A DNA stretch of 43,135 nt from a virus: IMG/VR virus record IMGVR_UViG_3300037246_003316, positions 1 through 43,135 of that record. One strand, given 5' to 3'. How positions within the stretch are numbered: the stretch's first letter is position 1; each line of letters opens with the position of its first letter. Below, one piece after another: positions 1-43,135 of this stretch. The notes below the pieces were generated by a model that made no database searches, was not told the origin of the DNA, and saw only the letters and a list, made by a program, of their open reading frames with translations. The position numbers and the translations under genes are program-made.

Positions 1-1
1 C

Positions 2-85
2 GGGAATGGCAAGCTGACGGGGTGCCCAGAGTGCAAACATATTTATGAAATTGCAGGCGTCACGGAACCAATAGGAAAATTATAA
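2..85 (+). CDS. Partial second copy of a small cassette gene (3' end only)
   Basis: The first 86 bases are identical to 2867-2952, the 3' end of the cassette gene at 2712-2951. They encode its last 27 residues, including the CPEC motif, and end with the same TAA that overlaps the core ATTATAAC. Identity stops exactly at the AAC of that core, and a different attC follows. The 5' part of this copy is missing from the window but would join to the sequence at 43135 if the genome is circular. Function is unknown. Confidence 0.8.
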   Translation, partial: GNGKLTGCPECKHIYEIAGVTEPIGKL

Positions 86-170
86 CAATAAGGGTAACAA
101 GCACCTGAACCAAGTTACCTATGAAAATCAAAGACACCTTTAGGTGTCTGGTTGACCCGCTGGTTCTAAA
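79..170 (-). other. attC site (atypical, two nested cores)
   Basis: Bounded by ATTATAAC (79-86; reads GTTATAAT on the minus strand) and GTTCTAAA (163-170). It contains a hairpin, AGACACC/GGTGTCT (132-149), as the variable terminal structure. A second core-like GGGTAAC lies only about 13 bases inside the first. Part of the body (around 106-130) resembles the attC at 3583-3675. The right-hand core departs from the RRRY consensus. Confidence 0.55.
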
Positions 171-191
171 GCGTGTTTATTAAGGAGAAAC

Positions 192-404
192 ATGAAAAAG
201 TTTATTAAAGATTTAGGCTCAGAACTAGAAGAATGCCCGTTTTGTAAAAAATATAATTTGAAATATGCCTGCTACATGTCAGGCGGTGTCATAGAATGCG
301 AGGACTGCGGCGCAATGGGCCCTGAGGTTTTAGTAGATCCATCTTCTGACGATATTATTGCTGATGCCATCAAATCTTGGAATGATAGAAAAGGAAAGCC
401 TTAG
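192..404 (+). CDS. Lar-like restriction alleviation protein (zinc ribbon)
   Basis: A 70-aa product with the layout of the Lar / restriction-alleviation zinc-ribbon family: ECPFC near residue 15, a central CEDCG near residue 37, and a C-terminal DAIKSWNDR that matches the EAIEAWNRR signature. Lar proteins of lambdoid prophages reduce type I restriction of unmodified DNA by modulating the host enzyme; that is family knowledge, and activity here is inferred. The start has a good ribosome site (AAGGAG, 182-187). The gene is a single-gene cassette: its TAG stop overlaps the degenerate core of the attC at 398-456. An early anti-restriction role suits its position downstream of the repressor region. 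Confidence 0.7.
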   Translation: MKKFIKDLGSELEECPFCKKYNLKYACYMSGGVIECEDCGAMGPEVLVDPSSDDIIADAIKSWNDRKGKP

Positions 405-456
405 CGACCAAGTTCAGCGCGCGGGGAACCCGTCCGCTGCAACGCTTGGTTAGACC
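398..456 (-). other. attC site with mutated crossover core
   Basis: On the minus strand this reads R'' GGTCTAAC, L'' CAAGCGTTGCAGCG, a short GC-rich loop, L' CGCTGAACTTGGTC, then GCTAAGGC. This is a textbook 59-bp attC except that the crossover triplet GTT is GCT. The right-hand core GTTAGACC (449-456) pairs perfectly with GGTCTAAC at 1075-1082, the end of the next cassette. The altered triplet should weaken excision of the Lar-like cassette. Confidence 0.8.
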
Positions 457-500
457 TTCTTTTGCGGATTTGTTCTTTTTCATTTTATTTGAAAATAACC

Positions 501-530
501 TTGACAACGTAGCTAGCTATGATGTAAGAT
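501..530 (+). promoter_or_regulatory. Sigma70-type promoter inside a cassette
   Basis: TTGACA (501-506) and TAAGAT (525-530) are separated by 18 bases, about 30 bases upstream of the first gene of a three-gene cassette. An internal promoter makes sense because these genes face the opposite way from any integron Pc promoter. Confidence 0.6.
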
Positions 531-562
531 TAGTTAACACTAAGAGTTAAGGAGGGAAGAAA

Positions 563-712
563 ATGAAAAACACAAGCGAAGTAAAAGCAATTAAGGAATA
601 CAGAAAAAATCACCCGGAGGCACATATCTTGACAGGCAAGCAGATCATAGTTTTTTTGAGGGCAGTTCGTAAAGTTGACATAGAGAGGCACTACAATGGA
701 AATATATATTAA
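563..712 (+). CDS. Small hypothetical protein (49 aa), first gene of a multigene cassette
   Basis: A basic 49-aa protein starting MKNTSEVK. It has a strong ribosome site (GGAGGG, 551-556) seven bases before the ATG and a consensus-like promoter just upstream. It overlaps the next gene by 17 bases, so the two are probably translationally coupled. No domain is recognised. The charged N-terminal half followed by LTGKQIIVFLRAVRKV suggests a small helical protein. It lies within the cassette bounded by GTTAGACC (449) and GGTCTAAC (1082). Confidence 0.6.
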   Translation: MKNTSEVKAIKEYRKNHPEAHILTGKQIIVFLRAVRKVDIERHYNGNIY

Positions 713-902
713 AATAGGCACCCACTCAGGCCAGGTAGTGCATGTTTGCAACAAAAGAGTATGGCCGGAATTGGGAGAAAAAATAAAAATAAAAGAAAAA
801 AATGTACCTTGGATAAAAAGTGAGACAGTTATCATTGACGAAATTGTTGGCCCTGGTGGGAATCGTGCCATGAGAACAACATTTTTTGCATCGAGAGTTT
901 GA
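696..902 (+). CDS. Hypothetical cassette protein, 68 aa
   Basis: The second gene of the three-gene cassette. It starts inside the previous gene, with GAGAGG 8-9 bases before the ATG. The product begins MEIYIKIGTHSG and is rich in beta-prone stretches (VVHVCNK, ETVIIDEIVG), with no transmembrane segment. The third gene starts three bases after its stop, so the cassette behaves as a compact operon. I do not recognise the family. Confidence 0.6.
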   Translation: MEIYIKIGTHSGQVVHVCNKRVWPELGEKIKIKEKNVPWIKSETVIIDEIVGPGGNRAMRTTFFASRV

Positions 903-904
903 CA

Positions 905-1081
905 ATGAGATGCCCGAATTGCAACCATATATTTGAAGACGAAGGCCGGAAGAAAGGTGGCGAAAACAGCAAGCGCACCGACATGGGGGCCGGATCTGAA
1001 GGGCAACGGAAAGCCCAGGAAGGCCGGAAGAAAGCTAAGGAAGCGAGACTTAAAGACAACATAGAGCAAAAGAAGGTCTAA
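905..1081 (+). CDS. Small CxxC protein with basic Gly/Lys-rich tail, 58 aa
   Basis: Starts at ATG 905, two bases after the stop of the previous gene. A TTG six bases earlier would add two residues and is less likely. The N-terminus has a single CPNCNHIF knuckle. The rest is charged and repetitive (RKKGGENSKRT, RKAQEGRKKAKEAR), like small nucleic-acid-binding phage proteins. The TAA stop overlaps the core GGTCTAAC, the usual junction in this array. Function is unknown; nucleic-acid binding is inferred from composition only. Confidence 0.55.
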   Translation: MRCPNCNHIFEDEGRKKGGENSKRTDMGAGSEGQRKAQEGRKKAKEARLKDNIEQKKV

Positions 1082-1105
1082 CGATGATTTCAGGGGCTTG
1101 TGGAT
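1075..1105 (-). other. Half attC (crossover core and L' side only)
   Basis: On the minus strand this ends with AAGCCCCTGAAATCATC then GTTAGACC. The box AAGCCCCTGA before the core is shared with the full attC at 2601-2697 and with the half site at 3219-3250. No matching R''/L'' arm is found before the next gene start, so the site appears truncated. The core itself pairs perfectly with that at 449-456. Confidence 0.55.
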
Positions 1106-1143
1106 TGAAGCCCAAAACTTTAAAGAATAAAGGAGTTTATAAA

Positions 1144-1425
1144 ATGAAAAACGAAAAAACAGAAAAACCGGCAACAAGTCCCTTGCAAAGTGGGGTTACC
1201 CTGCTTACTCGACTTAGAGATGGAAGCCAAGTGAGGGCATGCGACATAAGGGCAGTGAAAGTCTATGACGCAGAACAACTTTCTGGCGGGTTAAATATCC
1301 CCGCAAAGATAATTATTTCAATGGATGGAAACATGGGAGATATACGGATCGATTTCAATAGCCATTTCAACGCACAGGAATATGCTGAAACAATTGCCGC
1401 GATTGTTAATGGGGTTGCAGGGTAA
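1144..1425 (+). CDS. Hypothetical cassette protein, 93 aa
   Basis: I chose the ATG at 1144 because AAAGGAG (1129-1135) precedes it; the longer reading from 1084 would run through the attC half site. The product begins MKNEKTEKPATSP, then a beta-rich body (ACDIRAVKVYDAEQLSGG, KIIISMDGNMGDIRIDF), and ends in a short helix EYAETIAAIVNG. No signal peptide or membrane segment is seen. The stop overlaps the core GGGTAAC of the next attC. I do not recognise the family. Confidence 0.6.
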   Translation: MKNEKTEKPATSPLQSGVTLLTRLRDGSQVRACDIRAVKVYDAEQLSGGLNIPAKIIISMDGNMGDIRIDFNSHFNAQEYAETIAAIVNGVAG

Positions 1426-1489
1426 CAGCCAAGCTCAGCAGCCGATTGAAACGAAGTGAAAGCGGTCGGTTGCAGCGTTTGGTTAGAGG
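1420..1489 (-). other. attC site (complete, 70 bp)
   Basis: On the minus strand: R'' CCTCTAAC, L'' CAAACGCTGCAACCG, central loop, L' CGGCTGCTGAGCTTGGCT, core GTTACCC. It is a typical simple attC. Its right core, extended as GTTAGAGGGG (1482-1491), pairs perfectly over ten bases with CCCCTCTAAC at 2279-2288, which defines the next cassette. Confidence 0.85.
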
Positions 1490-1527
1490 GGCGCATAAAT
1501 AAAAATGCACATTGTGTAAAATAAGTG

Positions 1528-1556
1528 TTGACACAATGGGTATACCTTGGTAAGAT
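1528..1556 (+). promoter_or_regulatory. Sigma70-type promoter inside a cassette
   Basis: TTGACA (1528-1533), a 17-base spacer and TAAGAT (1551-1556), near-consensus, about 37 bases before the gene at 1594. The hexamers are identical to those at 501-530, with a one-base different spacer. Confidence 0.7.
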
Positions 1557-1593
1557 AAGGGCAAGTTGAAAAAACAAACCAAGGAGAAACAAA

Positions 1594-2085
1594 ATGAGCA
1601 AGAAGCTTGAAATATTAAAAAACTCTTTAGTGAAAAAAGAGAAGGTGCTTGATGAAAAATTTGACAACCATTTTGCAACGGTAAAGCAAGCAAATGGGCA
1701 ACCGTTAAACGACAAGCGCAACGGGCAAGCAACTTTAAACAAATGGGAACGCCAGAGCGATTCAATCAGAACACAAAAAGCCAGTATTGAGAAAACGGAA
1801 CGCGCCATTGAAATTGAAGAGGGGAAGATTTCCGAAGTTGAACATACCAATACTTTTATCCCTGCTGAAATTTTGCATTGCGTAGAAAATGGCGAGTTGA
1901 ATCAGTGGCGTAAACATCCAACTACTTTCTTTGTTTCTGGCGTTGATAAAGCACGCATTGTCTGGGACAATAAGAAAAAAGTTGTCGCTCACAGGTACGT
2001 GCGCTCAATTACAGATCAAGAGCAAAGATCAAAATTTGCAAAATTGTACAACAGGTTAAATATTGCCTTGAATGGCAAACACTAA
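1594..2085 (+). CDS. Hypothetical cassette protein with charged coiled coil, 163 aa
   Basis: The ATG follows AAGGAG at a good distance, and a near-consensus promoter lies directly upstream, so this cassette can express itself. Residues 1-90 are lysine/glutamate-rich and likely helical or coiled. Residues 95-163 (around FFVSGVDKARIVWDNKKKVVAHRYV) look like a small globular domain. The XRE regulator at 2099 starts 13 bases after its stop and shares the promoter and cassette. Function is unknown; pairing with a small HTH gene resembles toxin-antitoxin or regulator pairs, but no toxin fold is recognised. Confidence 0.65.
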   Translation: MSKKLEILKNSLVKKEKVLDEKFDNHFATVKQANGQPLNDKRNGQATLNKWERQSDSIRTQKASIEKTERAIEIEEGKISEVEHTNTFIPAEILHCVENGELNQWRKHPTTFFVSGVDKARIVWDNKKKVVAHRYVRSITDQEQRSKFAKLYNRLNIALNGKH

Positions 2086-2098
2086 GGAGAGGTGATAA

Positions 2099-2287
2099 AT
2101 GACAGCCAGTGAATTAAAAGAGGCCCGGCAAAAGCTGGGCCTCACGGTGGCAGAAGCGGCCAAGGTGTTTAAGGTGACATATTCAGCTTGGGGGAAATGG
2201 GAACGTGGCGAGAGAGCGATTTCTGGCCTTTTGATCGCAGCGTTGTCATTTTACGAAAAACTGCCGAAGGGCAAAAGACCCCTCTAA
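2099..2287 (+). CDS. XRE-family helix-turn-helix regulator, 62 aa
   Basis: A single HTH domain: ELKEARQKLGLTVAEAAKVF then VTYSAWGKWERGERAIS, the classical Cro/CI helix-turn-helix with the WERGER turn, spanning nearly the whole protein. GGAGAGG precedes the ATG. It is the second gene of its cassette, and its stop lies in the core CCCCTCTAAC. Small single-domain XRE proteins act as Cro-like repressors or antitoxins; which applies here is not shown. A Cro-like role opposite the repressor at 41781-42011 is possible. Confidence 0.8.
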   Translation: MTASELKEARQKLGLTVAEAAKVFKVTYSAWGKWERGERAISGLLIAALSFYEKLPKGKRPL

Positions 2288-2368
2288 CGCCCAAGCTAAG
2301 GGGCTTGAGCGAACGCAGTGAGAGAAAGTCCAAGGAGGAACGACTGACCTTGAGCGCCTGGTTATGGC
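2279..2368 (-). other. attC site (complete, about 87 bp)
   Basis: On the minus strand the crossover end reads CTTAGCTTGGGC then GTTAGAGG, the canonical L'-core arrangement. The other end is GCCATAAC then CAGGCGCTCAAGG. The body is nearly identical to the attC sites at 42126 and 42681, so all three share ancestry. Confidence 0.9.
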
Positions 2369-2397
2369 GCATGAATCTTAAAGAGAGAGGGCAGAAG

Positions 2398-2607
2398 ATG
2401 GCAAAAGCATTTAGTTGTAAATGTGAAGAACGTAAGAAGCCAGTAGAAGAAAGAAATTGGTTTGTAATATTGAGGCGATGGAACTGTGGGGCTTTTGAAC
2501 CGGCAGGGGGATCACCCTCTAATTATTCATCTGTATTTTGTGGAACCTGCGGGGATGGTGGACGGACAAAAGCCAATTATGTTCGGGAATTACCGGACGC
2601 GCTATAA
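2398..2607 (+). CDS. Cys-rich small cassette protein, 69 aa
   Basis: Starts at ATG 2398 after GAGAGGG. An in-frame ATG at 2371 is possible but lies almost in the attC. Cysteines at CKCEE, WNCGAF and FCGTCGDGG could form a zinc site. The cassette bounds are GTTATGGC (2361) and GCTATAAC (2601), which pair with one mismatch. The stop TAA is within the core. I do not recognise the family. Confidence 0.55.
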   Translation: MAKAFSCKCEERKKPVEERNWFVILRRWNCGAFEPAGGSPSNYSSVFCGTCGDGGRTKANYVRELPDAL

Positions 2608-2697
2608 CGGCATTATCAGGGGCTTTGCCTAAAGGTGATGGCGCAAATAGAAATTGGAATTCGTAAGGGAAAGTCCCTTGCATAAATTTGTTATAAT
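2601..2697 (-). other. attC site (complete, about 96 bp)
   Basis: Right core GTTATAAT (2690-2697) pairs perfectly with ATTATAAC at 2945-2952. Minus-strand L' reads AAAGCCCCTGATAATGCC then GTTATAGC. The opposite arm TGCAAGGGACTTTCCC pairs with it, and an internal palindrome AAGGGAAAGTCCCTT lies at 2665-2679. The same attC (from its TAAC onward) recurs at the window end, after a different gene. Confidence 0.8.
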
Positions 2698-2952
2698 TTG
2701 AGGTGATTAACATGGACGATGAAGGACAGTTTGAAAGTGAGGAAGAAGAAATTAAGGCCTGCCATGAATTGCTTGATAAGCATAGAGTGGAAGACACCCA
2801 TATAGTAAACGGAGAAGATTTAAGCTTGTATGGCCGTATTGCGCTGCTGACCGGTGACTTGGATTTCGGGAATGGCAAGCTGACGGGGTGCCCAGAGTGC
2901 AAACATATTTATGAAATTGCAGGCGTCACGGAACCAATAGGAAAATTATAAC
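2605..2952. repeat. 348-bp block duplicated at the two contig ends
   Basis: Positions 2605-2703 equal 43037-43135 and 2867-2952 equal 1-86. The block runs from the TAAC of one crossover core to the AAC of the next and so contains one attC plus the gene at 2712. In canonical (minus) orientation this is exactly one cassette. Flanking bases differ at both ends in the two copies. Confidence 0.85.
2712..2951 (+). CDS. Acidic cassette protein with single CxxC, 79 aa (duplicated cassette)
   Basis: Starts at ATG 2712, with GAGGTG 6 bases upstream; an in-frame GTG at 2703 is the alternative. The N-terminus is very acidic (EGQFESEEEEIKACHELL). The C-terminal half holds RIALLTGDLDFGNGKL and then CPECKHIY. 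This is the gene whose second copy spans the contig ends. Function is unknown; two copies in one array show it is a mobile cassette in practice. Confidence 0.65.
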   Translation: MDDEGQFESEEEEIKACHELLDKHRVEDTHIVNGEDLSLYGRIALLTGDLDFGNGKLTGCPECKHIYEIAGVTEPIGKL

Positions 2953-3009
2953 GACCAAGATCACCGGAAGCGGCGTAGCCGATTTCCGTGTGCAGCGCAT
3001 TGTTATCTT
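2945..3009 (-). other. attC site (complete, 65 bp)
   Basis: On the minus strand: AGATAAC, then AATGCGCTGCACACGGAAAT, then TTCCGGTGATCTTGGTC and the core GTTATAAT. This is a textbook attC with pairable L'' and L' arms. It follows the first copy of the duplicated gene, whereas the second copy (window start) is followed by a different attC. Confidence 0.85.
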
Positions 3010-3033
3010 GCGCGTAATTTAAGGGAGGATGAA

Positions 3034-3213
3034 TTGACAAACGAATATGGATTAGATGTTTCTTACTTTGAAAAGAAATTAAAGTTAATCGTGCGGGATG
3101 TTTCAAGGTATACCCCTTCTGAAATGGAAAGAGAACTTTTAAAATATGTAGAAGTTGCGAGACAACAAAAAGGCCCTAAAGACCCCGAACATGAGGAATT
3201 TTGGGATCACTGA
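3034..3213 (+). CDS. Small hypothetical cassette protein, 59 aa, TTG start
   Basis: The TTG at 3034 sits five bases after GGGAGG. The upstream ATG at 3029 is followed at once by an in-frame stop, so TTG is the only sensible start. The product TNEYGLDVSYFEKKLKLIV then RDVSRYTPSEMERELLKYVE is helical and charged. It resembles short uncharacterised phage proteins with a GLDVSYF...RDVSxYTPxE pattern, though I cannot name a family. It ends six bases before a half attC. Confidence 0.6.
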   Translation: MTNEYGLDVSYFEKKLKLIVRDVSRYTPSEMERELLKYVEVARQQKGPKDPEHEEFWDH

Positions 3214-3218
3214 CAGCA

Positions 3219-3250
3219 AGCTAACAAATTAATTCAGGGGCTTCTGCCAC
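3219..3250 (-). other. Half attC (crossover core and L' side only)
   Basis: On the minus strand AGAAGCCCCTGAATTAATTT then GTTAGCT. The AAGCCCCTGA box matches the sites at 1075 and 2601, but the opposite arm is absent before the next gene. The core does not pair with the start core of its own cassette (3002-3009), so this junction looks rearranged. Confidence 0.45.
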
Positions 3251-3265
3251 TGGGGAGGATGGAAA

Positions 3266-3589
3266 ATGATAAAATGTGGGGAGAGAGAGTGCCACAAGTA
3301 TAATGAAACAGAAGATAATAATTGCAAGAGATATGTTGACATAGAAATAGCGTCACGAGGCCAGTGCCGTAAAATGGTAAAAGATGCCGTGGCAGATGTC
3401 CCTTGCAATGTGGGGTTAAAGGGCAGGCTTATTACAGCCGCAGCTTCTCTCTCGTTACATAAATTAAGTGAGTTTGATGATGACTACCCTCAGAGATTTC
3501 CTAAACGGGTGTTAAGGGAGATAGAGAAGCATAACGACCACCTGGGCGACATTGCAAGAGAATTGATGTCAATTAAGGATGCCCTTTAA
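3266..3589 (+). CDS. Hypothetical cassette protein with N-terminal cysteines, 107 aa
   Basis: Ribosome site GGGGAGG at 3252-3258. The N-terminal 33 residues carry four cysteines (IKCGERECHKY, NNCKRYVD, GQCRKM) that could form a small metal or disulfide site. The remainder is helical and ends LGDIARELMSIKDAL. Its TAA overlaps the core CCTTTAAC. The N-terminal arrangement is common in short phage early proteins, but no function can be assigned. Confidence 0.6.
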   Translation: MIKCGERECHKYNETEDNNCKRYVDIEIASRGQCRKMVKDAVADVPCNVGLKGRLITAAASLSLHKLSEFDDDYPQRFPKRVLREIEKHNDHLGDIARELMSIKDAL

Positions 3590-3675
3590 CGTGATAGCTA
3601 GCCCGCCGCTGGACACGTTACCTATGAAATTAAAGACCGCTATAAGCGGTCGACGGCTCAGCGTTTGGTTAAGCC
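3583..3675 (-). other. attC site (complete, 93 bp)
   Basis: Minus strand: GGCTTAAC, CAAACGCTGAGCCGTCG, hairpin GACCGCT/AGCGGTC, CAGCGGCGGGCTAGCTATCAC, core GTTAAAGG. The right core GTTAAGCC (3668-3675) pairs perfectly with GGCTTAAC at 3865-3872. This attC belongs to the first cassette next to attI. Confidence 0.85.
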
Positions 3676-3706
3676 GCACGAACCTTAAAGAGACAGGAGA
3701 AAAACA

Positions 3707-3871
3707 ATGGAATACCAGTTATTGATAAGCGACTCATCTGTAAATTTGCAATCACAAGTTAGAAAAATGATAGAAGAAGGCTGGGAGCCACAAGGTGGCT
3801 TGGCTTTATTTATAGGCCATGGGGGTGCATTTACTTGTGGGCAAGCAATGATAAAAAGGATTGCGGCTTAA
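3707..3871 (+). CDS. DUF1737-like protein, 54 aa, in the attI-proximal cassette
   Basis: A 54-residue protein starting MEYQLLISDS after AGGAGA (3695-3700). The core MIEEGWEPQGGLALF and QAMIKR matches the DUF1737 pattern (GWxPxGG...QAM). That family is small and of unknown function and is common in phages and mobile elements. The stop lies in GGCTTAAC, which on the minus strand is the crossover core joined to attI, so in integron terms this is the first and most recently captured cassette. Confidence 0.65.
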   Translation: MEYQLLISDSSVNLQSQVRKMIEEGWEPQGGLALFIGHGGAFTCGQAMIKRIAA

Positions 3872-3922
3872 CAATGATTATATACACAGTGGCTACATAA
3901 CTCTGATAAAAAGGGGGTAAAT
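3865..3922 (-). other. attI candidate and leader of intI
   Basis: The core GGCTTAAC (GTTAAGCC on the minus strand) is followed on the right not by an attC stem but by 50 bases of AT-rich sequence running straight into the intI start codon. That is the expected place and structure of attI: a lone core beside the 5' end of the integrase gene. The integrase ribosome site AAAAAGGGGG lies at its right edge. The exact attI extent cannot be read by eye. Confidence 0.6.
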
Positions 3923-4941
3923 GTGAATAGGGTGCAGATTATAGATGAAATGAGAGGAAAACTAAGAATGATGCACCGAGCTTTAAAAACTGAAAGGGCT
4001 TATATTGCCTGGGTACAGAAATACATTTCTTTCCTTGCTCAACTTCCTGTAGATATTTCAAGTGAAGAAAAGTTTGAACGCTATATGACGCACTTGGCTG
4101 TCCAGTGTCATTTGCTGCATCTACTCAAAATCAGGCTTTTAATGCTATCTTATTTATGTACCGCCATGTTCTGAAAATTGATATCTCGGGTGTAGAAGGT
4201 AAGCGTGCCCGGCGTGATAAATATATTCCCGCAGTTTTGACCTGTGAAGAAGTGTCTTTAATCATCGGAAAGATGCAGGGAATAAACAAGCTTATCGCCT
4301 CTTTGATATACGGTTGTGGTCTGAGAGTGAGTGAGGCGCTACGACTCAGGGTGAAGGATGTTGATTTTACACAGATGTCTATCACGCTGCGGAACACAAA
4401 GAGCCACGCCGATCGGGTGGTCATGTTACCGGAAAGTCTTGTCGAGAGATTACAGGAACAGGTCGAAAAGGCCGAAGCTATTCACGTGAAAGATCTCCGC
4501 AATGGATACGGGTCAGTCGAGATGCCCCATTCCTTAGCAAAAAAATATCCTGGAGATGCCTATTCAGTAGCATGGCAGTTTGTCTTTCAGGGTGCAAATA
4601 TTTCTACTTGCCCGCGCACCGGTGAAAAGCGGCGTCATCATGTTTTCCCTACATCAATACAAAGGGCAGTTCGCAATGCTGTCCGCCGGTCAGGGATAAA
4701 AAAGAAGGCATCATGTCACACCTTTCGTCATAGCTTTGCTACCCATCTTATTGAGGCAGGTTACGACATCCGTACAATTCAGGAACTCCTCGGCCATAAG
4801 TCTGTCGAGACTACAATGATCTATACCCATGTTGCAAAAAAGGCGAAGCTGGCCGTGAAGAGTCCTATTGATTCAATATTGGAACCCCGGTCAGTTGTTC
4901 GTTATGGTGATTTGGAGGTTTTGGCTGGTGGTAAGAAGTGA
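3923..4941 (+). pseudogene. intI: Integron integrase IntI, interrupted by one frameshift
   Basis: Tyrosine recombinase with the diagnostic IntI insertion. Two frames together give about 339 codons, the normal IntI length. Frame one (GTG 3923) encodes the SAM-like N-terminal domain up to YMTHLAVQ. Homology resumes near 4107 in the -1 frame with VSFAASTQNQAFNAILFMYR. The second part holds the IntI-specific patch (WQFVFQGANISTCP, RTGEKRRHH) and catalytic residues Arg in CGLRVSEAL, HTFR, LGHKS and the nucleophile Tyr in MIYTHV. No slippery heptamer is seen at the junction, so a base loss is likelier than programmed shifting. Family knowledge: IntI recombines attI with attC. Either the enzyme is dead or the read has an indel. 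Confidence 0.85.
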
Positions 4942-5027
4942 AGGCTTCACGTACAAGATTTGGAGCATTCGCAGTTTATCTTTGCAATAAATTCAGTCTG
5001 CGTTGTGTTCGTGTGTGTGGTGGTTTC

Positions 5028-5141
5028 GTGGTAGAAAGAGTTTCCTGCGAAACCTGTCGGTATAAAGAAAGCAATCATACACCACTTTGTGCTATCCCTT
5101 CTTCAGTGGGATGTGATGATTGGAAGATTAAAGAACTATGA
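5028..5141 (+). CDS. Small Cys-rich protein (37 aa)
   Basis: The open frame begins at GTG 4938, overlapping the intI stop, but the conserved-looking part is the C-terminus: CETCRYKESNHTPLCAI...GCDDWKIKEL, a four-cysteine pattern often seen in small phage proteins. I take the GTG at 5028, preceded by GGTGG, as a plausible start; 4938 (67 aa) cannot be excluded. Function is unknown, and a zinc-binding knuckle is inferred from the cysteine spacing. Confidence 0.45.
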   Translation: MVERVSCETCRYKESNHTPLCAIPSSVGCDDWKIKEL

Positions 5142-5177
5142 TCGATATCATTAATTGAAATAAATACATACTTTTTC

Positions 5178-5217
5178 TTGACCGTCTTATGATTAAAGTA
5201 TATACTTTAATCATAAG
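5178..5217 (+). promoter_or_regulatory. Strong promoter overlapped by a perfect 32-bp palindrome operator
   Basis: TTGACC (5178-5183), 17-base spacer, TATACT (5201-5206): near-perfect sigma70. The sequence 5186-5217 is a perfect inverted repeat with 16-bp arms (CTTATGATTAAAGTAT and its complement), covering spacer and -10. A dimeric or tetrameric regulator bound there would block the promoter. It drives the ligase gene and probably everything downstream through the origin region. Confidence 0.8.
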
Positions 5218-5238
5218 TAGTTATTTGAGGAGAGAAAA

Positions 5239-5988
5239 ATGAAGCGAATGAAGTCAGAAAGATATAAAAACCAAAACGTCGTTGGTTGGCTAATGAGTGA
5301 AAAGCTAAACGGTGTTTTTGCACGATGGGACGGCAAAGTTTTACTAAGTAGCAACGGCAATGAATATCATGCACCCAAATGGTTTAAAGACCAACTCCCT
5401 GTAAATATAATGCTTGAAGGTGAATTATATATTGACCGGGCTATGTTGGGTAAAATTGTTGGGATCGTACGTAAAGAAACACCAATTGATTCTGAGTGGC
5501 GCTTGATTAAGTTTCATGTCTTTGATGCTCTGGAGATAAAAGGTGGGTTTAAAACACGCCTGGCGGCTGCTGCTAAGATATTGACAGGGTCTGCTATTGC
5601 CCTGACGGTAGACATTGAAGTGTGTCGAAGCTCAAGACATCTGAATGAATTTTATTATGACCTGATTGATAGCGGGGCTGAAGGGATTATGATCCACTGC
5701 CCTGATTCAGAATATGAATATCATCAAACTCATAAACTTATGAAATATAAACCTTTTAAAGATGATGAAGCTGAAGTTGTTGGATATAAAGAAGGCATCG
5801 GAAAGTATGAAGGCCTTCGCGAAGCATTGCTTTGTAGATGGAAGGATGTGATATTTAAGCTACGCATTAATAATGAACAACACGCAATGCCAGAAATAGG
5901 GGCACAGATTACTTTTGCTTTTCATGGAATAACTGATAGAGGTATACCAAAGAATGTATCTTTTGTGATGGAAAGAAGCTATGAGTAG
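5239..5988 (+). CDS. ATP-dependent DNA ligase, small phage type
   Basis: 249 aa, the size of minimal ligases with an adenylation and an OB domain only. Motif I is SEKLNGVFARW with Lys22 as the adenylated residue; the usual KLDG is KLNG here. Motif III LEGELY is at about 59-64, motif IV GAEGIMI near 150 and motif V LMKYKP near 170. The OB domain (DEAEVVGYKEGIGKYEG onward) fills residues 175-249. No signal peptide, unlike periplasmic LigE. It seals nicks in duplex DNA, fitting a role in phage replication or circularisation beside the origin. The start is fixed by GAGGAGAG before ATG 5239. It overlaps the next gene by eight bases. Confidence 0.85.
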   Translation: MKRMKSERYKNQNVVGWLMSEKLNGVFARWDGKVLLSSNGNEYHAPKWFKDQLPVNIMLEGELYIDRAMLGKIVGIVRKETPIDSEWRLIKFHVFDALEIKGGFKTRLAAAAKILTGSAIALTVDIEVCRSSRHLNEFYYDLIDSGAEGIMIHCPDSEYEYHQTHKLMKYKPFKDDEAEVVGYKEGIGKYEGLREALLCRWKDVIFKLRINNEQHAMPEIGAQITFAFHGITDRGIPKNVSFVMERSYE

Positions 5989-6202
5989 AGGCGGTAAAAG
6001 AACAGGTTCAGGCCGAAAACGTATAGCCTGTAATCTTAAAAAAAAAGGAATCTATGTCAAGGTATCACCTTGGCTGGCAGAGTGGCTTAAACTTCAATCT
6101 AAAGCGCAGGGTGTCTTGATTGAAGAAGCATTAATAGAAGTTCATGGCTTGGAATTACCTGTGGATAAGTCTGTCTATAAGTCCTACTTATCCACAGCTT
6201 AA
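5981..6202 (+). CDS. Small basic protein, 73 aa, upstream of the origin
   Basis: Starts inside the ligase 3' end, indicating translational coupling. The N-terminus SRGGKRTGSGRKR is an AT-hook-like basic arm. The rest (VKVSPWLAEWLKLQSKAQGVLIEEAL) resembles the helix pair of ribbon-helix-helix proteins, with a beta strand KKGIYVKV before it. Its own 3' end contains two DnaA-box-like 9-mers, so the gene runs into the origin. DNA binding at the origin or the 5186 palindrome is a reasonable guess, not shown. Confidence 0.6.
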   Translation: MSRGGKRTGSGRKRIACNLKKKGIYVKVSPWLAEWLKLQSKAQGVLIEEALIEVHGLELPVDKSVYKSYLSTA

Positions 6203-6460
6203 TAACTTAAGTTTTATAACAAAAAATAATTGTTGAGGATGTATTGTGGATAAGCCTGTTGATAACCGTGTTTTTTGAGGACAAAATGGCTGTTAGTAGT
6301 CCAACTGTTGATAACTATGTTTACAAATCTGTGGATAGCTTGTGGATATGGTGTTGATAACCAATGATTTCTGTGGATAAACCTGTTGATAACCTAGACT
6401 GTATCATTATATATATAAAAATATATATACACTACGTGTATATATATATTTTTAATATAA
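6160..6460. other. Probable replication origin: DnaA-box cluster and AT-rich hairpin
   Basis: Between 6160 and 6392 lie TGTGGATAA-type boxes at 6160, 6188 (reverse), 6245 and 6372, near matches at 6330 (TGTGGATAG) and 6341 (TGTGGATAT), and the variant TGTTGATAA at 6257, 6306, 6352 and 6384. TGTGGATAA is the complement of the DnaA consensus TTATCCACA. An AT-rich tract with an imperfect inverted repeat (ATATATACAC / GTGTATATAT, about 6417-6452) follows directly, suitable as an unwinding element. The stretch 6203-6491 has no gene. Such clustering is typical of oriC and of DnaA-dependent plasmid origins. Confidence 0.8.
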
Positions 6461-6491
6461 CCGCAGTAGTAAACTACCAAAGTATGCCGAA

Positions 6492-6869
6492 ATGATTGAA
6501 TACGAAGAATTAAAAAAAATAATCAAAATAGTTTTAAAAGAACCGTGCAAAAAAAAATCAGACCGGTTCATAGAATCCCTTTGCCTTTCGCTACATCGCA
6601 AGATCAAAGGCTTTGACAGGGAAGATATTATTGCGGGCTTAAATCTCTACTCTGTAAAAAAATCACTATTAAGAAATCAATTCCCTCAGTCCACGATTCA
6701 TAAGGCCATTTCAAATCTTAATAAAAAAAGATTGCTGTCAATTGAATATTTGTCTGCACAAAAGGAAACATTGTCCCAAGATGAAAAACCTGATATTGTA
6801 AAAAAATGTCTGCAACTCGTTTATTCCGGTGACAGCAAGAAAATGGAGGGCGTGAACATTGGCGAATGA
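6492..6869 (+). CDS. Hypothetical protein with possible winged helix, 125 aa
   Basis: First gene after the origin-like repeats. The middle (ESLCLSLHRKIKGFDREDII, then SLLRNQFPQSTIHKAISNLNKKRLLSIEYL) reads like a winged-helix domain with a recognition helix near STIHKAISNLNKK. A DNA-binding protein beside a DnaA-box cluster could be an initiator or a regulator, but no replication-protein family is recognised. There is no clear ribosome site before ATG 6492. The next gene starts within its last codons at TTG 6859. Confidence 0.5.
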   Translation: MIEYEELKKIIKIVLKEPCKKKSDRFIESLCLSLHRKIKGFDREDIIAGLNLYSVKKSLLRNQFPQSTIHKAISNLNKKRLLSIEYLSAQKETLSQDEKPDIVKKCLQLVYSGDSKKMEGVNIGE

Positions 6870-7557
6870 TGCATTTTCTTTTACGGCAACTGATATGATT
6901 TTGCTTAGAAAGATGTTCAAAAAAGCCCCACGGAAAATGCGCAGGGTAACTGCAGGTGTCTTGACCAGTGAGGCATTTGCAATGAGGCCTGTGATCTTCA
7001 AGGTTTTGAACAAGGAAATGGAAATCAGAAGCCCTGGTTTCGCAAGAAAGAATATCCGCGTTGAAAAAGCCAGAGCAACGACAATCAACACTCAGTCTTC
7101 AAGGGCAGGAAGTATATTTGCACGCGGGTTCACTGGATGGCAGGAACAACAATTCGGAAAGGAAAGTAAGGAAGCCAAAGTCTATACTAAGTTTTCCAGG
7201 GGTGGGTCATGGAAAGGTAAAGTCAAACAGAAGTTCCGAAGTAATACCAAGTTGTGGCGCCCGTCCGATTTTAATATAAAAAATGCCAGTAGTGAAAGGC
7301 ATCGAATGATTATCTTTCTTCAAATGCTGACAGCCAGGGGAATCACGGACAGATTCTTCATGCCGAACAGAGTAGGCAAAATGAAGATCGGAATCTACAG
7401 GATAGAAAGGAACACAATCAAGAAAATTAAAAAAGATGAACTTCATAAACCCCGCAAGATAGACTGGATGAATAAATCTATTAAGCTGCTGAAGCGTGAA
7501 GTCAACATCAAAGAACTTTATGCTGATAATGTGCGGCATGTCTTCAAGTTGAGATAA
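6859..7557 (+). CDS. Basic phage protein, possibly gpZ-like minor tail/neck protein
   Basis: The TTG at 6859 follows GGAGGG (6845-6850) by eight bases and overlaps the previous stop. The 232-aa product is strongly basic. Its N-terminal part (KAPRKMRRVTAGVLTSEAFAMRP, then a long helix and a Gly/Ser region) recalls the layout of lambda gpZ tail-completion proteins, which also begin with a helix followed by basic beta segments. Similarity is by general pattern only. Its place just before the small terminase is unusual for a neck protein, so a DNA-binding role is the main alternative. Confidence 0.45.
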   Translation: MANDAFSFTATDMILLRKMFKKAPRKMRRVTAGVLTSEAFAMRPVIFKVLNKEMEIRSPGFARKNIRVEKARATTINTQSSRAGSIFARGFTGWQEQQFGKESKEAKVYTKFSRGGSWKGKVKQKFRSNTKLWRPSDFNIKNASSERHRMIIFLQMLTARGITDRFFMPNRVGKMKIGIYRIERNTIKKIKKDELHKPRKIDWMNKSIKLLKREVNIKELYADNVRHVFKLR

Positions 7558-7579
7558 TAAAAAAAGGTACTGTGGAGGG

Positions 7580-7626
7580 TTATCCACAAGCCGAGCACTA
7601 CCAATCACACAGACCGGTTATCAACA
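7580..7626. promoter_or_regulatory. Second, smaller set of DnaA-box-like sites
   Basis: TTATCCACA at 7580-7588 and TTATCAACA at 7618-7626 lie in the 127-bp gap before the small terminase gene. They are the same two 9-mer types found in the origin cluster, both in the opposite orientation to most of that cluster. They could link packaging-gene expression or the packaging start to replication. Confidence 0.5.
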
Positions 7627-7684
7627 GGTGCGAGAGGTTGAAAAAAGGTTGACAATCAGGTTGACTCTTTGTAATATTTAAAAT

Positions 7685-8413
7685 ATGAAGAAAGGCAACT
7701 CTCAAAATCTAGTCTCCCAGGCACAGTTTGCAAAACTTTGTAAGGTCAGTGCTGAAGCAATAAGAAAGGCCTGCATCGCCGGAAAAATAGATATTGAGGG
7801 TGAAGGCCGTAAAAAGAAAATCGATTTGAACGGTTCTTCCACGATCGAATATCTTCACGATAAGAATTCCCAACGCAACAAAGCCGCTGAAAACTCCCCT
7901 AAAATGGAGAAATCATCAATTGCCGTCCCGGATGTGGCATCGGGTCAGGAAAAAAACAATATCGCTAAAAATCTTCCAGATCAATCATTGTCATCTGGAT
8001 CTGATTCAAAATCTGGTGGTGATTTTGAAATCGATCTTGAAAATTCAACTGACGCTGAAATTTTAAAAAATCTCACTGTCGGCAAGGTGAAAATGTTGAA
8101 GGAAATTGAGGCAATGCGACTGGCCAGGCAATTACGATTGAAGAACAGGGGTGCTTTAATCGAAAGAAAATTGGTGACCATCTTCCTGGGGAAAATATTC
8201 ACGATCGAACAAAATGAAATTATTCCCATAGCTGACAAATCACCAGCAAAAATAGCGGCCATTTTCGGTGTCGAGGATAATGAAAAAATTCTAAAGGTCG
8301 GTAAATTACTGAAAAATGAAATAGCCAAGGCCTTCAAGCATATTGAGATCAGAACTGAGGATTTCATGGAACACATTGGTTCAGATGTCGAAGGTGAAAA
8401 TGTTTCGAGATGA
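7685..8413 (+). CDS. Terminase small subunit, Nu1-like
   Basis: 242 aa. The N-terminal helix-turn-helix VSQAQFAKLCKVSAEAIRKACIAGKI matches the Nu1/excisionase-type winged helix used to bind cos DNA. A low-complexity Ser/Asp/Lys linker (about 60-125) leads to a helical C-terminal region with many charged residues, likely for contact with TerL. It precedes and overlaps a GpA-type large terminase, the normal order. The ATG at 7685 has no strong ribosome site. Known role: recognises phage DNA and recruits the large subunit for packaging. Confidence 0.75.
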   Translation: MKKGNSQNLVSQAQFAKLCKVSAEAIRKACIAGKIDIEGEGRKKKIDLNGSSTIEYLHDKNSQRNKAAENSPKMEKSSIAVPDVASGQEKNNIAKNLPDQSLSSGSDSKSGGDFEIDLENSTDAEILKNLTVGKVKMLKEIEAMRLARQLRLKNRGALIERKLVTIFLGKIFTIEQNEIIPIADKSPAKIAAIFGVEDNEKILKVGKLLKNEIAKAFKHIEIRTEDFMEHIGSDVEGENVSR

Positions 8414-10397
8414 AGATATTGAATTTTTGAAAATATGTTCATCGGCAAGACCAGATTCCGATCCGATTGAAAGAATATCGGATTATGCTGCAGAAAAAAG
8501 AATCCTTCCAACGGGAACACCCTTTCCCGGTTTATGGGACAATGACCACACGCCTTATCTTATCGAACCTATGGACAATATGAGTCCTTGGAGTCCCATT
8601 CAGCACACTGTCGTCATGAAGGGCCCACAGCTGGGTTTCACTGGCTGTGCAGAAAATGTCCTTTGTTACTGGATGGACGCAAACCCAGCACCGATCCTTT
8701 TCATGTCGGCCACTGATGCCCTTCTTATCGAATGGGCAGGAAAACGTCTTGAACCTGCCATCGATTCCTGCAAATTCAGGCACAAAATATTTGCACAGAC
8801 AGAAAACACCAAAACCCGCAGAACCGGCGACAATTCCATGTCCAAGGATTATATCGGCGGCTTTCTTATTATGAGTTCCGCGCAATCAGCGGCTAAAATG
8901 CGTACAAATTCAGTGCGAATATTGATTCGTGACGAAATAGATGGATCCCCGAAAGAGCTTAGAACGGGCGAAGGTAACTGGATGGAAGTTTCACTGGCCA
9001 GACTTGATGCCTGGGATGCCAGAAAAAAGATCATGGATATATCCACACCGACAACCTTCCAGCGCTCGAGTATTTTCCCGGCTTATAAAGCCGGCGACTG
9101 CCGAAAGTTTCTGGTGCCCTGTCCGCATTGTAATAAAAAGCAGGAACTTGTCATGGGAACACCGGAATCCACAAGCGGTCTGAAAGGTGACCATGAAGCC
9201 GGGATATTAAAAAGCGCTTATTATCTTTGTGACCATTGCCATGAAGCATTTTTTAATAGTCATAAATCTGAATTCCTAAAAGAAGGCATTTGGACTCCAA
9301 CGACAAAAAGTAGTGATCCGCTGCTTAGAAGTTATCAGATAAGTTCCCTTTATTCACCAATAGGCATGTTGTCATGGCTTGATGCTCTGAAAAGATATGA
9401 AAAGGGAATGAAGGACCCTGACAAAGCGCAAGCAGCAACAAACCTAGTCCTGGGTATGCCATTCAAAGAAACCGGCAGTCGGCCAAATTATCAAAAAGTC
9501 TGTGAGAATAGAGGCGATTATGAAGAAGGCACAGTCCCGGATGGCGTTCTTTTCCTGACAATTGGCATCGATGTCCAGGTGGGGAGCAAAAAGGATGTCC
9601 ACAACCCACCACGTTTGGAAATTGAGGTCATGGGTACCGGCTCGGGGTACAGAACATGGTCAATTCTCTATCGTCGCTTTGAGGGGGAAGTGACAGATCC
9701 ATTTGAAGGCGCCTGGGAAGCGATGAACAAGTGGGCGCTTGAAGGAGGCCTTACTTTCTACAGGGATGATGGCATGCCTTTTGATGTGAAACTGGTTTTT
9801 ATAGATTGCGGAATCGGTGTGTCTGATTATTTGCAAGCGGTATATAATTTTTCAGAAAGATGGCAAAATACCTATCCATCCAAAGGTTTTGATATTATTC
9901 AGGATAAAAAGGGCAATCAAAAACATAGGGCTGGTCCCAACTCCACTTTGCGATATAAATCCAATAGCGTCAAATCTTCAAAAGGTCAGATAATTTATCA
10001 GATAGGAACACTTCTTTACAAAAAGCGGATATATAATCACCTGAAAATTCAAAGGCAGATGACAGGCAATCAGAAGCCTGGTTTTTGTGATTTTCCTATT
10101 GGCAGGGATGACAAATATTTCAAAATGCTTACCGCAGAAGACCAGTTGGCAGATGGAAGTTTTGAGGCTTATGGTCGAAGAAATGAATCTCTGGATTGCC
10201 GGGTCTATGCCAGTTGTGCTTCAGATGTCTATCTTGATGCGCTGGTATCTGAGGAAAAGGAAAATGCCAAGATAAAAGGTGCCAGTGTTGTCGAATTGAC
10301 TCAGATTAACAAAGTGTGGGTGCTTCAATACTTGGAAAGACGTATTTTGAAAAAAAATACAGCCCAGGAAGAATTACCGTTGACAAATGAAAAATAG
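8400..10397 (+). CDS. Terminase large subunit, lambda GpA family
   Basis: From ATG 8400 (with AAGGTG upstream; earlier in-frame starts at 8343 and 8385 lack one) the product is 665 aa, close to lambda gpA. The packaging ATPase Walker A variant VVMKGPQLGFT lies at 71-81 and Walker B ILIRDEIDG near 180. A zinc ribbon CPHCNKK...CDHCHEAF lies near 250-290. The C-terminal half holds the nuclease region (LTIGIDVQ, KLVFIDCGIG). It cuts concatemers and drives DNA into proheads. It overlaps the small subunit by 14 bases. GpA enzymes usually cut at cos sites; no cos site was identified by eye. Confidence 0.93.
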   Translation: MFRDEDIEFLKICSSARPDSDPIERISDYAAEKRILPTGTPFPGLWDNDHTPYLIEPMDNMSPWSPIQHTVVMKGPQLGFTGCAENVLCYWMDANPAPILFMSATDALLIEWAGKRLEPAIDSCKFRHKIFAQTENTKTRRTGDNSMSKDYIGGFLIMSSAQSAAKMRTNSVRILIRDEIDGSPKELRTGEGNWMEVSLARLDAWDARKKIMDISTPTTFQRSSIFPAYKAGDCRKFLVPCPHCNKKQELVMGTPESTSGLKGDHEAGILKSAYYLCDHCHEAFFNSHKSEFLKEGIWTPTTKSSDPLLRSYQISSLYSPIGMLSWLDALKRYEKGMKDPDKAQAATNLVLGMPFKETGSRPNYQKVCENRGDYEEGTVPDGVLFLTIGIDVQVGSKKDVHNPPRLEIEVMGTGSGYRTWSILYRRFEGEVTDPFEGAWEAMNKWALEGGLTFYRDDGMPFDVKLVFIDCGIGVSDYLQAVYNFSERWQNTYPSKGFDIIQDKKGNQKHRAGPNSTLRYKSNSVKSSKGQIIYQIGTLLYKKRIYNHLKIQRQMTGNQKPGFCDFPIGRDDKYFKMLTAEDQLADGSFEAYGRRNESLDCRVYASCASDVYLDALVSEEKENAKIKGASVVELTQINKVWVLQYLERRILKKNTAQEELPLTNEK

Positions 10398-37391: not shown

Positions 37392-37601
37392 TCATTTTTT
37401 CATAAATTCACCCTCCTTAAGACTGCCTACCGTTTTTATTTTATCAGCTACTATGCCAAATTTTTTCATTGCATCTGAGGCCGTTGTAGTTGCCCTTGTG
37501 AGTGCTGTTACTGCCTTAGCAAGGTTAGTTCTATCCTTTTCTGTAAAATTAAAAGCGGCCATAATAGCAGGGTCAACAAAAGGTGTTTTCATACCGGCCA
37601 T
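37392..37601 (-). CDS. Small hypothetical protein, 69 aa
   Basis: ATG 37601 overlaps the 3' end of the DUF5131 gene by 13 bases, indicating coupling. The product AGMKTPFVDPAIMAAFNFTE then NLAKAVTALTRATTTASDAM is helical with a Lys-rich end. No domain recognised. The 130 bases between it and the methyltransferase (37262-37391) show no convincing gene, only an open frame overlapping the methyltransferase start. Confidence 0.5.
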   Translation of the reverse strand: MAGMKTPFVDPAIMAAFNFTEKDRTNLAKAVTALTRATTTASDAMKKFGIVADKIKTVGSLKEGEFMKK

Positions 37602-38577
37602 CCCAGATGTTCTTTTCCATCCAGTAGTCTGCCGGCATTCTTTTTGCCTGCACGCACCATCCTGATCCCATCTTCGAAGGTATGCATTCTTTTTCTGGCG
37701 ATTTGCTTGACAAATTTTTCACCCCTGAAGATAGCATCTTCGGTTGTCATCCATTCACCCCACTGTTTGAAGAAAAAAGGGATGCCGGCAGCACTGCATT
37801 GATCGCGGAGGGCACGCACCTGGTTTGGATGCAGTGCTGTGGCCTGCTGACCACTTTCGCCGCCACAGATAACACAGTCAATTTTGTTTTCGCTACTTTG
37901 GACTATGTTGTCGTTTATATCTGTCCAGACAAACTGTGTCAAATCCACCGGGCCCAACATCGGTTCGACGCTGACAAACCTCTTTGCTGCTGGGATCGAT
38001 ATCAGGTGTGGAATTCGTTTGTTCGCCTGTTCCTGGTCTTCTGTAGACGTGCCGACCCAGAAAGTTGAATAAACATCATCTTGTGTGGGCAGATATTCCC
38101 AGTCATCCCAATCATCTTTTAAAAGCTGTGATTTGAAATACATTTCCCACAGTGCTGCGAAGCGATCGGGGCGCTTTGTCAGAAAAAGGAAGGTGTGGGC
38201 CTCTTTTTTACATCGCTGTTATGGATGCGATGATTGTTGATGGAATAGCACTTGTCCAGTATCCGGGTGAACAGATCGAAAGTCACGTTTGGATGTGCTA
38301 TGTCACCCATGGATCCCACAAAGACTTTTTTCCCATGGGTGCCATCGAATAGTTTTTCCATGCACTGCAGGTTGTTGTTGATCTTGCCGACCCACTGGAT
38401 TTTGCCTGCGATATTTTCTGTGGTCCCTTGGTATTTATCCGAAATCCTGGGGTCAGGATTGTATGACAGTCTGTGTGCCATTTTCAGCGCATAGCAGTTT
38501 GTGCAGCCTGTGGATAACTTTGAACACCCTGCAAAGGGATTGACCGTTTCGTCGGCCCACTCGATCTTTGTACTCAT
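37589..38577 (-). CDS. DUF5131 (Gp37/Gp68) family protein, expressed by -1 frameshift or broken
   Basis: Two frames make one family protein. Frame one (ATG 38577) gives TKIEWADETVNPFAGCSKLS then TGCTNCYALKMAHRL and GKKVFVGSMGDIAHPNVTF, and stops at 38179-38181. The -1 frame continues HTFLFLTKRPDRFAALWEMY, then STFWVGTSTEDQEQANKRIP and FVSVEPMLGPVDL to 37589. The frames meet at A AAA AAG (38209-38203), in exact slippery phase; a -1 slip there gives a 329-aa full-length protein. The CxxxxxxxCxxCY cluster suggests a radical-SAM-like iron-sulfur site, as in relatives. Function in phages is unknown. An A-run indel is the alternative. Confidence 0.75.
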
Positions 38578-41780: not shown

Positions 41781-42011
41781 TTATCCTTTGCGCTTTATGA
41801 AGGTTTCAATCTTATATCCCAAAGCTTTTGCGATTGGCTTTAATGTTTCTATCTTGAAGGTACTTTTATGGTTACCACTTTCCAGATTGCATATAGTTCG
41901 CTCAGTTACGTTTGCCCGATTAGCAAGTTCCCGCTGCGTCATCTTCTTTTTTTCCCGTGCCTCTTTGAATATGCCGGCAAGTTGTTCCTTTTTCTGTATA
42001 TCGATTTTCAT
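41781..42011 (-). CDS. XRE-family repressor (CI-like), 76 aa
   Basis: ATG 42011 with GGAGGC upstream; the longer frame from 42176 would read through the promoter and is rejected. Residues 10-65 are a classical HTH (IFKEAREKKKMTQRELANRA, NVTERTICNLESGNHKSTFK), with no protease domain. It is divergently placed from the cassette array and its promoter carries a palindrome, as expected of an autoregulated lysogeny repressor. Absence of a LexA-like domain means induction is not by simple self-cleavage. Confidence 0.85.
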   Translation of the reverse strand: MKIDIQKKEQLAGIFKEAREKKKMTQRELANRANVTERTICNLESGNHKSTFKIETLKPIAKALGYKIETFIKRKG

Positions 42012-42039
42012 TGTGCCTCCGTCAAGTGATTCTGATATG

Positions 42040-42109
42040 AATATAATTGTAACGGAAGAGAAAGTCAAGAACTTTTTTTCTTGACTTTGGATTTGAATGG
42101 GATTAAGCT
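42040..42109. promoter_or_regulatory. Divergent promoters sharing an 11+11 bp operator
   Basis: Leftward promoter: TTGACT (42068-42063), 17 bases, TATATT (42045-42040), for the repressor. Rightward: TTGACT (42081-42086), 17 bases, TAAGCT (42104-42109), weaker, pointing into the cassette array. Both -35 boxes lie in the arms of the inverted repeat AAAGTCAAGAA (42061-42071) / TTCTTGACTTT (42078-42088). One bound dimer could control both directions. Confidence 0.7.
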
Positions 42110-42125
42110 TGTTCTTAAGATGAAC

Positions 42126-42213
42126 AGATAACGACCAGCTAAGGGGCTTAAACGAACGCAGTGAGAGAAAGTCCAAGGAATAAAATGACTGACCTTGAGC
42201 GCATGGTTAGGCT
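42126..42213 (-). other. attC site at the distal end of the array
   Basis: On the minus strand: AGCCTAAC, CATGCGCTCAAGG, body, AAGCCCCTTAGCTGGTC, GTTATCT. Nearly identical in body to the sites at 2279 and 42681. The right core GTTAGGCT (42206-42213) pairs perfectly with AGCCTAAC at 42681-42688. The crossover core departs in sequence from its relatives, as expected where it joins phage DNA. Confidence 0.85.
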
Positions 42214-42228
42214 GATTTAAGGGGTTTT

Positions 42229-42687: not shown

Positions 42688-42770
42688 CGCCCAAGCTAAG
42701 GGGCTTGAGCGAACGCAGTGAGAGAAAGTCCAAGGAATGAAATGACTGACCTTGAGCGCATGGTTAGGCA
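42681..42770 (-). other. attC site (complete, about 88 bp)
   Basis: Minus strand: TGCCTAAC, CATGCGCTCAAGG, body, CCCCTTAGCTTGGGC, GTTAGGCT. The segment TTAGCTTGGGCGTTAGGC is the canonical L'-core motif. The right core GTTAGGCA (42763-42770) pairs perfectly with TGCCTAAC at 43033-43040. Confidence 0.9.
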
Positions 42771-42784
42771 AAAAGGAGGTTGAA

Positions 42785-43039: not shown

Positions 43040-43135
43040 CGGCATTATCAGGGGCTTTGCCTAAAGGTGATGGCGCAAATAGAAATTGGAATTCGTAAGG
43101 GAAAGTCCCTTGCATAAATTTGTTATAATTTGAGG
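43033..43135 (-). other. attC site, second copy of the site at 2601 (runs to the contig end)
   Basis: Core TGCCTAAC (43033-43040) is followed by the same attC as 2605-2703, identical for 99 bases to the last base of the window. Here it follows a different gene than at 2601, showing that the attC travelled with the gene downstream of it (on the plus strand), not with the one upstream. Confidence 0.85.

Follow-up and report, generated by a model that had tools for sequence, protein, structure and literature searches.

In which direction are the genes of an integron cassette array read when the array lies in a phage genome, and what transcribes them? This question is raised by the IMG/VR virus record IMGVR_UViG_3300037246_003316, which was analyzed over its full length of 43,135 nucleotides (the window). 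The record carries genes for a GpA-type terminase, a portal, and a tail sheath (phrog_15, phrog_21, phrog_165), as expected of a tailed phage. It also contains an integron integrase gene (intI), an attI site, and an array of gene cassettes with attC recombination sites (Table 1). A first-pass annotation made from the sequence alone had claimed that every cassette gene is inverted relative to its attC site.

attC sites are nearly palindromic; what defines their strand is one additional base, carried by the 8-nt L'' box and lacking in the 7-nt L' box that it faces. A single extrahelical base has been described as the determinant of the attC strand (PMC2727003). Integrons and clusters of attC sites without intI (CALINs) were reported from sequenced phages, which carry attC and sometimes intI, with cassettes including DNA methyltransferase genes; their attC bottom strands recombine (Qi et al. 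2023, PMC9892861).

Strand of the attC sites and cassette genes

A simple consensus scan for attC was too noisy for strand assignment. Instead, we used a bulge test, a home-made position weight matrix (PWM) with a pairing model trained on bacterial and reference attC sites, and an Infernal covariance model (CM; R1) of 25 bacterial attC sites whose orientation was taken from the geometry of intI. The bulge rule was first checked on integrons with an orientation known from the integrase: the extra base was found on the expected arm in every strict match (bacterial loci L043, L054, L088, L089, and L114, Shewanella phage L122, and class 1 integron L124), and some further bacterial loci gave weaker, mixed matches. 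As a control, the models assigned the three attC sites of phage TJE1 to the strand that carries its genes, in agreement with the 'typical' structure described for this phage (PMC9892861). Rfam gave no attC match.

In the window, the canonical attC orientation is on the minus strand according to all three tests, as the first-pass annotation had stated. The covariance model gave 12 matches at E ≤ 10, all on the minus strand, and ten of them lie within the array (42682, 2282, 399, 1423, 2946, 42126, 2602, 43034, 80, 3584), so that its sites share one orientation relative to attI, as in an integron. With the PWM/pairing model at a threshold of at least 20 bits, four to five non-overlapping matches were obtained, each of them on the minus strand within the array; 5 × 43 kb of Markov-shuffled sequence gave none. 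In both long-loop sites (1076–1201 and 3219–3421) the strand-defining extra base is likewise on the minus arm. At these two sites the start codon of a gene lies in the loop of the upstream attC, and one attC arm is translated.

The integrase gene is on the plus strand and starts beside the attI core at 3868–3874, at the place assigned to attI earlier. The attI has two cores as in attI1 and was aligned with viral attI sites and class 1 attI1. By a frameshift placed at about 4105–4171, intI is split into two open reading frames (ORFs), the first matching the N-terminus of TIGR02249 (profile 1–56) and the second positions 60–314 of this profile with 346.9 bits (cut-off 265). The split is either a sequencing or assembly indel or else a genuine lesion.

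All genes of the array lie on the plus strand according to the codon model and ribosome binding sites, as also claimed before. Unlike in ordinary cassettes, where the gene is oriented as its attC, every cassette of the window is thus inverted. The further claim that the stop codons are formed by the TAAC of the crossover core applied to 10 of the 12 cassettes, in which a TAA stop lies inside the core; it did not apply to the genes ending at 404 (TAG, degenerate core) and 3213 (TGA).

Extent of the array and units of exchange

The array, originally given as 1–3872, turned out to be larger: this stretch is part of it, but the whole array consists of 42126–43135 joined to 1–3872. The contig ends inside the second copy of a duplicated cassette (about 43037–43135 equals 2604–2702, and 1–86 equals 2867–2952), and therefore the array of about 12 cassettes wraps across the contig ends, with three strong attC sites at the far right end (42126, 42682, 43034). 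If the copies match, about 163 bp of the second one are absent from the record.

The duplicated cassette carries an attC upstream of its gene and stops at the core of the next attC, the remainder of which differs between the two copies beyond the duplication boundary. Exchange blocks in the viral contigs L139, L137/L138, and L156 also start within a core and carry the upstream attC. From these boundaries, a cassette consists of an attC followed by a gene when read on the plus strand, or of an antisense gene followed by an attC in the canonical minus-strand reading. The duplication boundaries had been cited in support of the minus attC polarity, and the core-to-core extent of the window duplicate and of the viral exchange blocks agrees with it. 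Such boundaries would be expected of mobile cassettes exchanged at G|TTRRRY.

Comparison of viral and bacterial integrons

A single IntI query yielded 39 viral contigs and 80 bacterial loci, and two more viral queries raised the number of viral contigs to 46. IMG/VR was sampled via exact peptide seeds, and viral status was checked for a subset of the contigs. With the terminase as query, no related viral contigs were retrieved, hence no sister genome was available for comparison. Gene strands were assigned with a home-made caller using codons and Shine-Dalgarno sequences; it settled most of the 19 viral intervals in GC-rich contigs that were ambiguous by ORF length alone.

In 27 viral or phage loci, 61 of 61 Infernal attC matches were opposite to the intI strand. 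A covariance model scoring the plus strand as canonical had been named beforehand as the result that would speak against inversion; both these matches and the 12 of the window showed the opposite. The orientation of attC to intI was alike in nearly all loci, with the reverse integrons L110 and Rctr41k (L121) as exceptions. Gene orientation differed: 61 viral intervals were inverted, 2 co-oriented, and 3 ambiguous; among bacterial intervals, 60 were co-oriented, 4 inverted, and 13 ambiguous. Counted by gene, 122 viral cassette genes were inverted versus 8 that were not (94:6 without near-copies), and in 28 bacterial loci 127 were co-oriented versus 7 inverted, in line with the earlier statement that genes mostly follow attC in ordinary arrays. 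Counted per locus, 23 were inverted and 4 co-oriented in phages, and 1 was inverted and 27 were co-oriented outside phages (Fisher p = 2e-10; the phage exceptions from GenBank are counted in, and relatedness is ignored). The inverted arrangement is therefore not limited to the window but occurs in about two dozen other viral contigs and is rare in bacteria. One co-oriented call in L002 was rejected as an artefact of thin training, since the identical sequence in L003 was called inverted. The chief exception is found in the viral array of L139 (8590–9928), where a duplicated cassette holds two genes in normal orientation.

On the IntI tree, the inverted arrays are spread over a main viral clade, L151/L027/L146, the long branches of L173 and L177, and the window, whose IntI groups with those of Campylobacterota (SH-aLRT 94). 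Separate origins of the inverted arrays are likely from this distribution. Class 1 IntI1 adjoins the main viral clade (L125, L128, L145, and others) with modest support, and the viral attI aligns with attI1.

Operon-like architecture

In the viral loci, cassette genes mostly begin 17–38 nt past the attC, a distance too short to hold a promoter. On the same strand, intI follows the last cassette gene at a median distance of 42.5 nt. In bacteria, the neighbor of intI is divergent and 278 nt away, and it is in this gap that the divergent promoters normally lie. In 19 of the 21 viral loci left after dereplication, the genes flanking the array on the left were codirectional with its cassettes. ParB-like and methyltransferase genes lie upstream of the array in some contigs, and opposite-strand tail genes were found past intI in many. 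In 23 viral cassettes the stop codon lies exactly one base ahead of the 7-nt core (TGA-R-GCCTAAC; e.g., L125:7579, L130:9434), and 17 others stop inside the core, so that these genes extend right up to the cassette boundary.

Phages whose integrons are laid out differently also keep their cassettes codirectional with neighboring genes: Rctr41k by a reverse platform, M16-3 by a canonical array aligned with its neighbors, and TJE1 without intI. The earlier proposal was that selection for co-orientation with early phage transcription has fixed the reversed cassettes; co-orientation with phage transcription, possibly early, gained support from the flanking genes, several IntI lineages, and these other layouts. 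As codirectionality is reached in different ways, it is likely codirectionality and not inversion itself that is the target of selection, and selection for codirectionality with the operon is well supported as the probable cause of the orientation.

Promoter scans were uninformative apart from two promoter-like sites in cassettes, one upstream of the three-gene cassette (TTGACA-18-TAAGAT, 501–530) and one upstream of the gene for a 163-aa protein (TTGACA-17-TAAGAT, 1528–1556). Within intI, one promoter-like site was found on the minus strand (4248–4220), the total count being within about 2 standard deviations of shuffled sequences; as a candidate cassette promoter (Pc), it would transcribe the cassette genes antisense. 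Facing the cassette farthest from attI is a helix-turn-helix (HTH) gene on the minus strand (41781–42176).

Proposed mechanism and alternative explanations

In our view, ordinary IntI/attC chemistry probably operates here within an operon-embedded architecture, in which transcription from a phage promoter passes through the inverted cassettes and reaches intI last. IntI would exchange cassettes by its usual recombination between attI and attC sites, with crossover at G|TTRRRY and attC opposite to the intI strand, each gene being inverted relative to its attC. Upstream phage genes or a promoter, the cassette genes, and finally intI would form a single plus-strand transcription unit. Since the usual integron promoter beside attI would read the cassettes antisense, the mostly promoterless cassettes would be expressed by phage read-through, presumably during infection, from a promoter on the attI-distal side. 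New cassettes would enter at attI and thereby become promoter-distal genes just ahead of intI, and phages would retain those codirectional with the operon. Recombination would also take place in the window phage itself, although its frameshifted intI makes current activity uncertain.

Several observations weigh against this explanation. A scan of 42020–42126, upstream of the window array, revealed no sigma-70-like promoter on the plus strand, and the two promoter-like sites within cassettes mean that read-through is not the only possible source of transcripts. L139 carries four normally oriented genes. The counts are phylogenetically non-independent, with 2 strictly supported independent pairs on the IntI tree and 7 on all branches, and the window array could be frozen if intI is indeed frameshifted.

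The orientation might instead reflect descent, the inverted cassettes having arisen once in a phage lineage and been exchanged among phages ever since. Some cassettes are common to several contigs (L134/L130/L138/L167), and one IntI clade holds most inverted arrays, so that a shared phage cassette pool could account for part of the pattern. As the full explanation it appears unlikely, as the IntIs of the window, L151/L027/L146, L173, and L177 are distant, cassette families are mostly private (95 families in 130 proteins), and no homologous block was detected between the window array and any viral array. Decay into fossil attC sites within an ordinary phage operon, with a non-working intI and an accidental orientation, would fit the frameshift and some degenerate cores (399–455). 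We consider it improbable, because the duplicated copies are identical where both were sequenced and are joined exactly at cores, the IntIs of related viral contigs are mostly full length, and many contigs share the pattern.

With genes on the plus and attC on the minus strand, the attC bottom strand serves as the non-template strand. In a replication context, excision increases when the bottom strand is accessible in single-stranded form (PMC11023631). Reversed polarity might then have been selected because transcription displaces the bottom strand and couples shuffling to phage expression, and not for gene sense; Rctr41k and TJE1, in which codirectionality is kept with the opposite geometry, make this quite improbable. 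In a broader version, to which we give little credence, promoterless integrons would form a distinct class that evolved repeatedly in phages, in which the choice of attC strand secures sense to the phage operon and operon transcription both expresses cassettes with intI and exposes the recombinogenic attC strand, coupling shuffling to infection. That the strand of the near-palindromic attC was simply misread and the cassettes are normal is practically impossible, given that the minus strand is indicated alike by CM and PWM, by the position of the bulge, and by the exchange boundaries. Top-strand insertion of normal cassettes was rejected, as it would invert the attC together with the gene and the orientation of attC to intI is the usual one. 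Of these explanations, we prefer the operon-embedded array with ordinary chemistry.

Relation to known integrons

The window shares with canonical integrons (class 1, Vibrio) the IntI family, attI (that of the viral clade aligning with attI1), the attC structure, and the crossover position. In canonical integrons, however, the genes have the orientation of their attC and Pc transcribes them in the direction leading away from intI, whereas the window genes are antisense to that direction and viral arrays leave little room for a divergent promoter. According to the literature, the strand selectivity of attC secures expression of captured genes by the promoter of the integron (PMC2727003). Viral arrays, in which the attC polarity is unchanged and the genes are reversed, indicate that the strand rule can serve another transcription unit.

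The reverse integron of Treponema (PMC3607928) resembles the window in having intI and cassette genes on one strand, but its intI is transcribed towards attI and the cassettes. In the window, attI lies at the 5' end of intI, which is read away from it, and it is the genes and not the platform that are reversed. The Treponema layout is resembled by phage Rctr41k, where the attC array lies 3' of intI and all is on one strand (4680–9400). A reverse-type integron outside Treponema was observed in an Acidobacteria metagenome-assembled genome (L110, 10763–19605), with 16 attC sites 3' of intI.

With intI present, the window array is not a CALIN. Among the phages of Qi et al. 2023 (PMC9892861), TJE1 and PH101 have the typical structure and the intI-bearing cases are near bacterial or host integrons; no array is described there in which the genes are uniformly opposite to attC and transcribed in the direction of intI. 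Divergent attC directions were noted for P12002L (PMC9892861), and in our analysis one of its attC sites sits between opposite-strand genes. A search of the full-text literature, with preprints and many subscription papers outside its reach and priority unestablished, found no published arrays with genes consistently inverted relative to attC.

Cassette content

Among 107 cassette proteins, N6/N4 methylases (5), Lar (2), and Dam (2) were recognized besides single helicase, exonuclease, and HTH matches, and the majority had no family. A role in counter-restriction, suggested earlier for phage CALINs (PMC9892861), can reasonably be inferred for the proteins with matches. The arrays would thereby offer phages a way of stockpiling counter-restriction genes such as those for methyltransferases and Lar, and annotation presuming co-orientation of gene and attC would misread this phage cassette pool.

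Features of the window

Table 1. Features of the integron array in the window, in array order across the contig ends.
Feature	Position	Strand	Remarks
Most distal attC, array boundary	42126–42212	−	CM 17.7 bits, PWM 30.5
Dam-type DNA methyltransferase cassette gene	42229–42687	+	phrog_111, 1e-21
attC, top-scoring	42682–42769	−	CM 31.7 bits, E 6.5e-5
Cassette gene, 84 aa	42785–43039	+	
attC, second copy	43034–43128	−	CM 14.3 bits; from core on identical to site 2602–2696
3' end, second copy of duplicated cassette gene	1–86	+	100% identity to 2867–2952
attC, weak	80–169	−	CM 11.0 bits
Lar-family restriction alleviation protein, cassette gene	192–404	+	PF14354, 1.3e-9, above gathering score
attC with degenerate R' (GCTAAGG)	399–455	−	CM 24.2 bits
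Three-gene cassette	563–1081	+	563–712, 696–902, 905–1081
Long-loop attC	1076–1201	−	PWM 18.4; bulge asymmetry; next gene's start in loop
Cassette gene, 93 aa	1144–1425	+	
attC	1420–1488	−	CM 24.0 bits, PWM 19.7
Cassette gene, 163 aa	1594–2085	+	Unknown function
HTH gene (HTH_3/Aca2-like)	2099–2287	+	Same cassette as 163-aa gene; PF01381, 2e-7; PF08965, 1.5e-5
attC	2282–2367	−	CM 26.5 bits; near-identical to sites at 42126 and 42682
Cassette gene, 69 aa	2398–2607	+	TAAC stop; missed by automatic gene caller
attC of duplicated cassette	2602–2696	−	CM 16.9 bits; second copy 43034–43128
Duplicated cassette gene, 79 aa	2712–2951	+	3' end again at 1–86
attC	2946–3008	−	CM 23.6 bits
Cassette gene, 59 aa	3034–3213	+	
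Long-loop attC	3219–3421	−	Bulge asymmetry; by eye L'' ATT[G]CAAG, L' CCTGAAT; next gene starts in loop
Cassette gene, 107 aa	3266–3589	+	Unknown function
attC of attI-adjoining cassette	3584–3674	−	PWM 22–24 bits, CM 9.8 bits
Cassette gene, 54 aa	3707–3871	+	TAA stop within attI-side core
attI	3868–3901	−	Adjoins intI; R core G|TTAAGC 3868–3874, L core GTTATGTAG ~3891–3899
Integron integrase intI	3923–4941	+	Split by frameshift into 3923–4174 and 4105–4941

The two-gene cassette at 1594–2287, with the gene for the 163-aa protein followed by that for the Aca2/HTH_3-like regulator, recalls an anti-CRISPR/aca or toxin-antitoxin pair. The near-identical attC sites at 2282–2367, 42126–42212, and 42682–42769 belong to three unrelated genes. 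Outside the array, two adjoining minus-strand ORFs (37589–38143 and 38179–38577) each match part of one cassette protein of L002/L003, encoded by the DUF5131 gene at L002:217–1002, which suggests that the pair at 37589–38577 is another split gene in this record.

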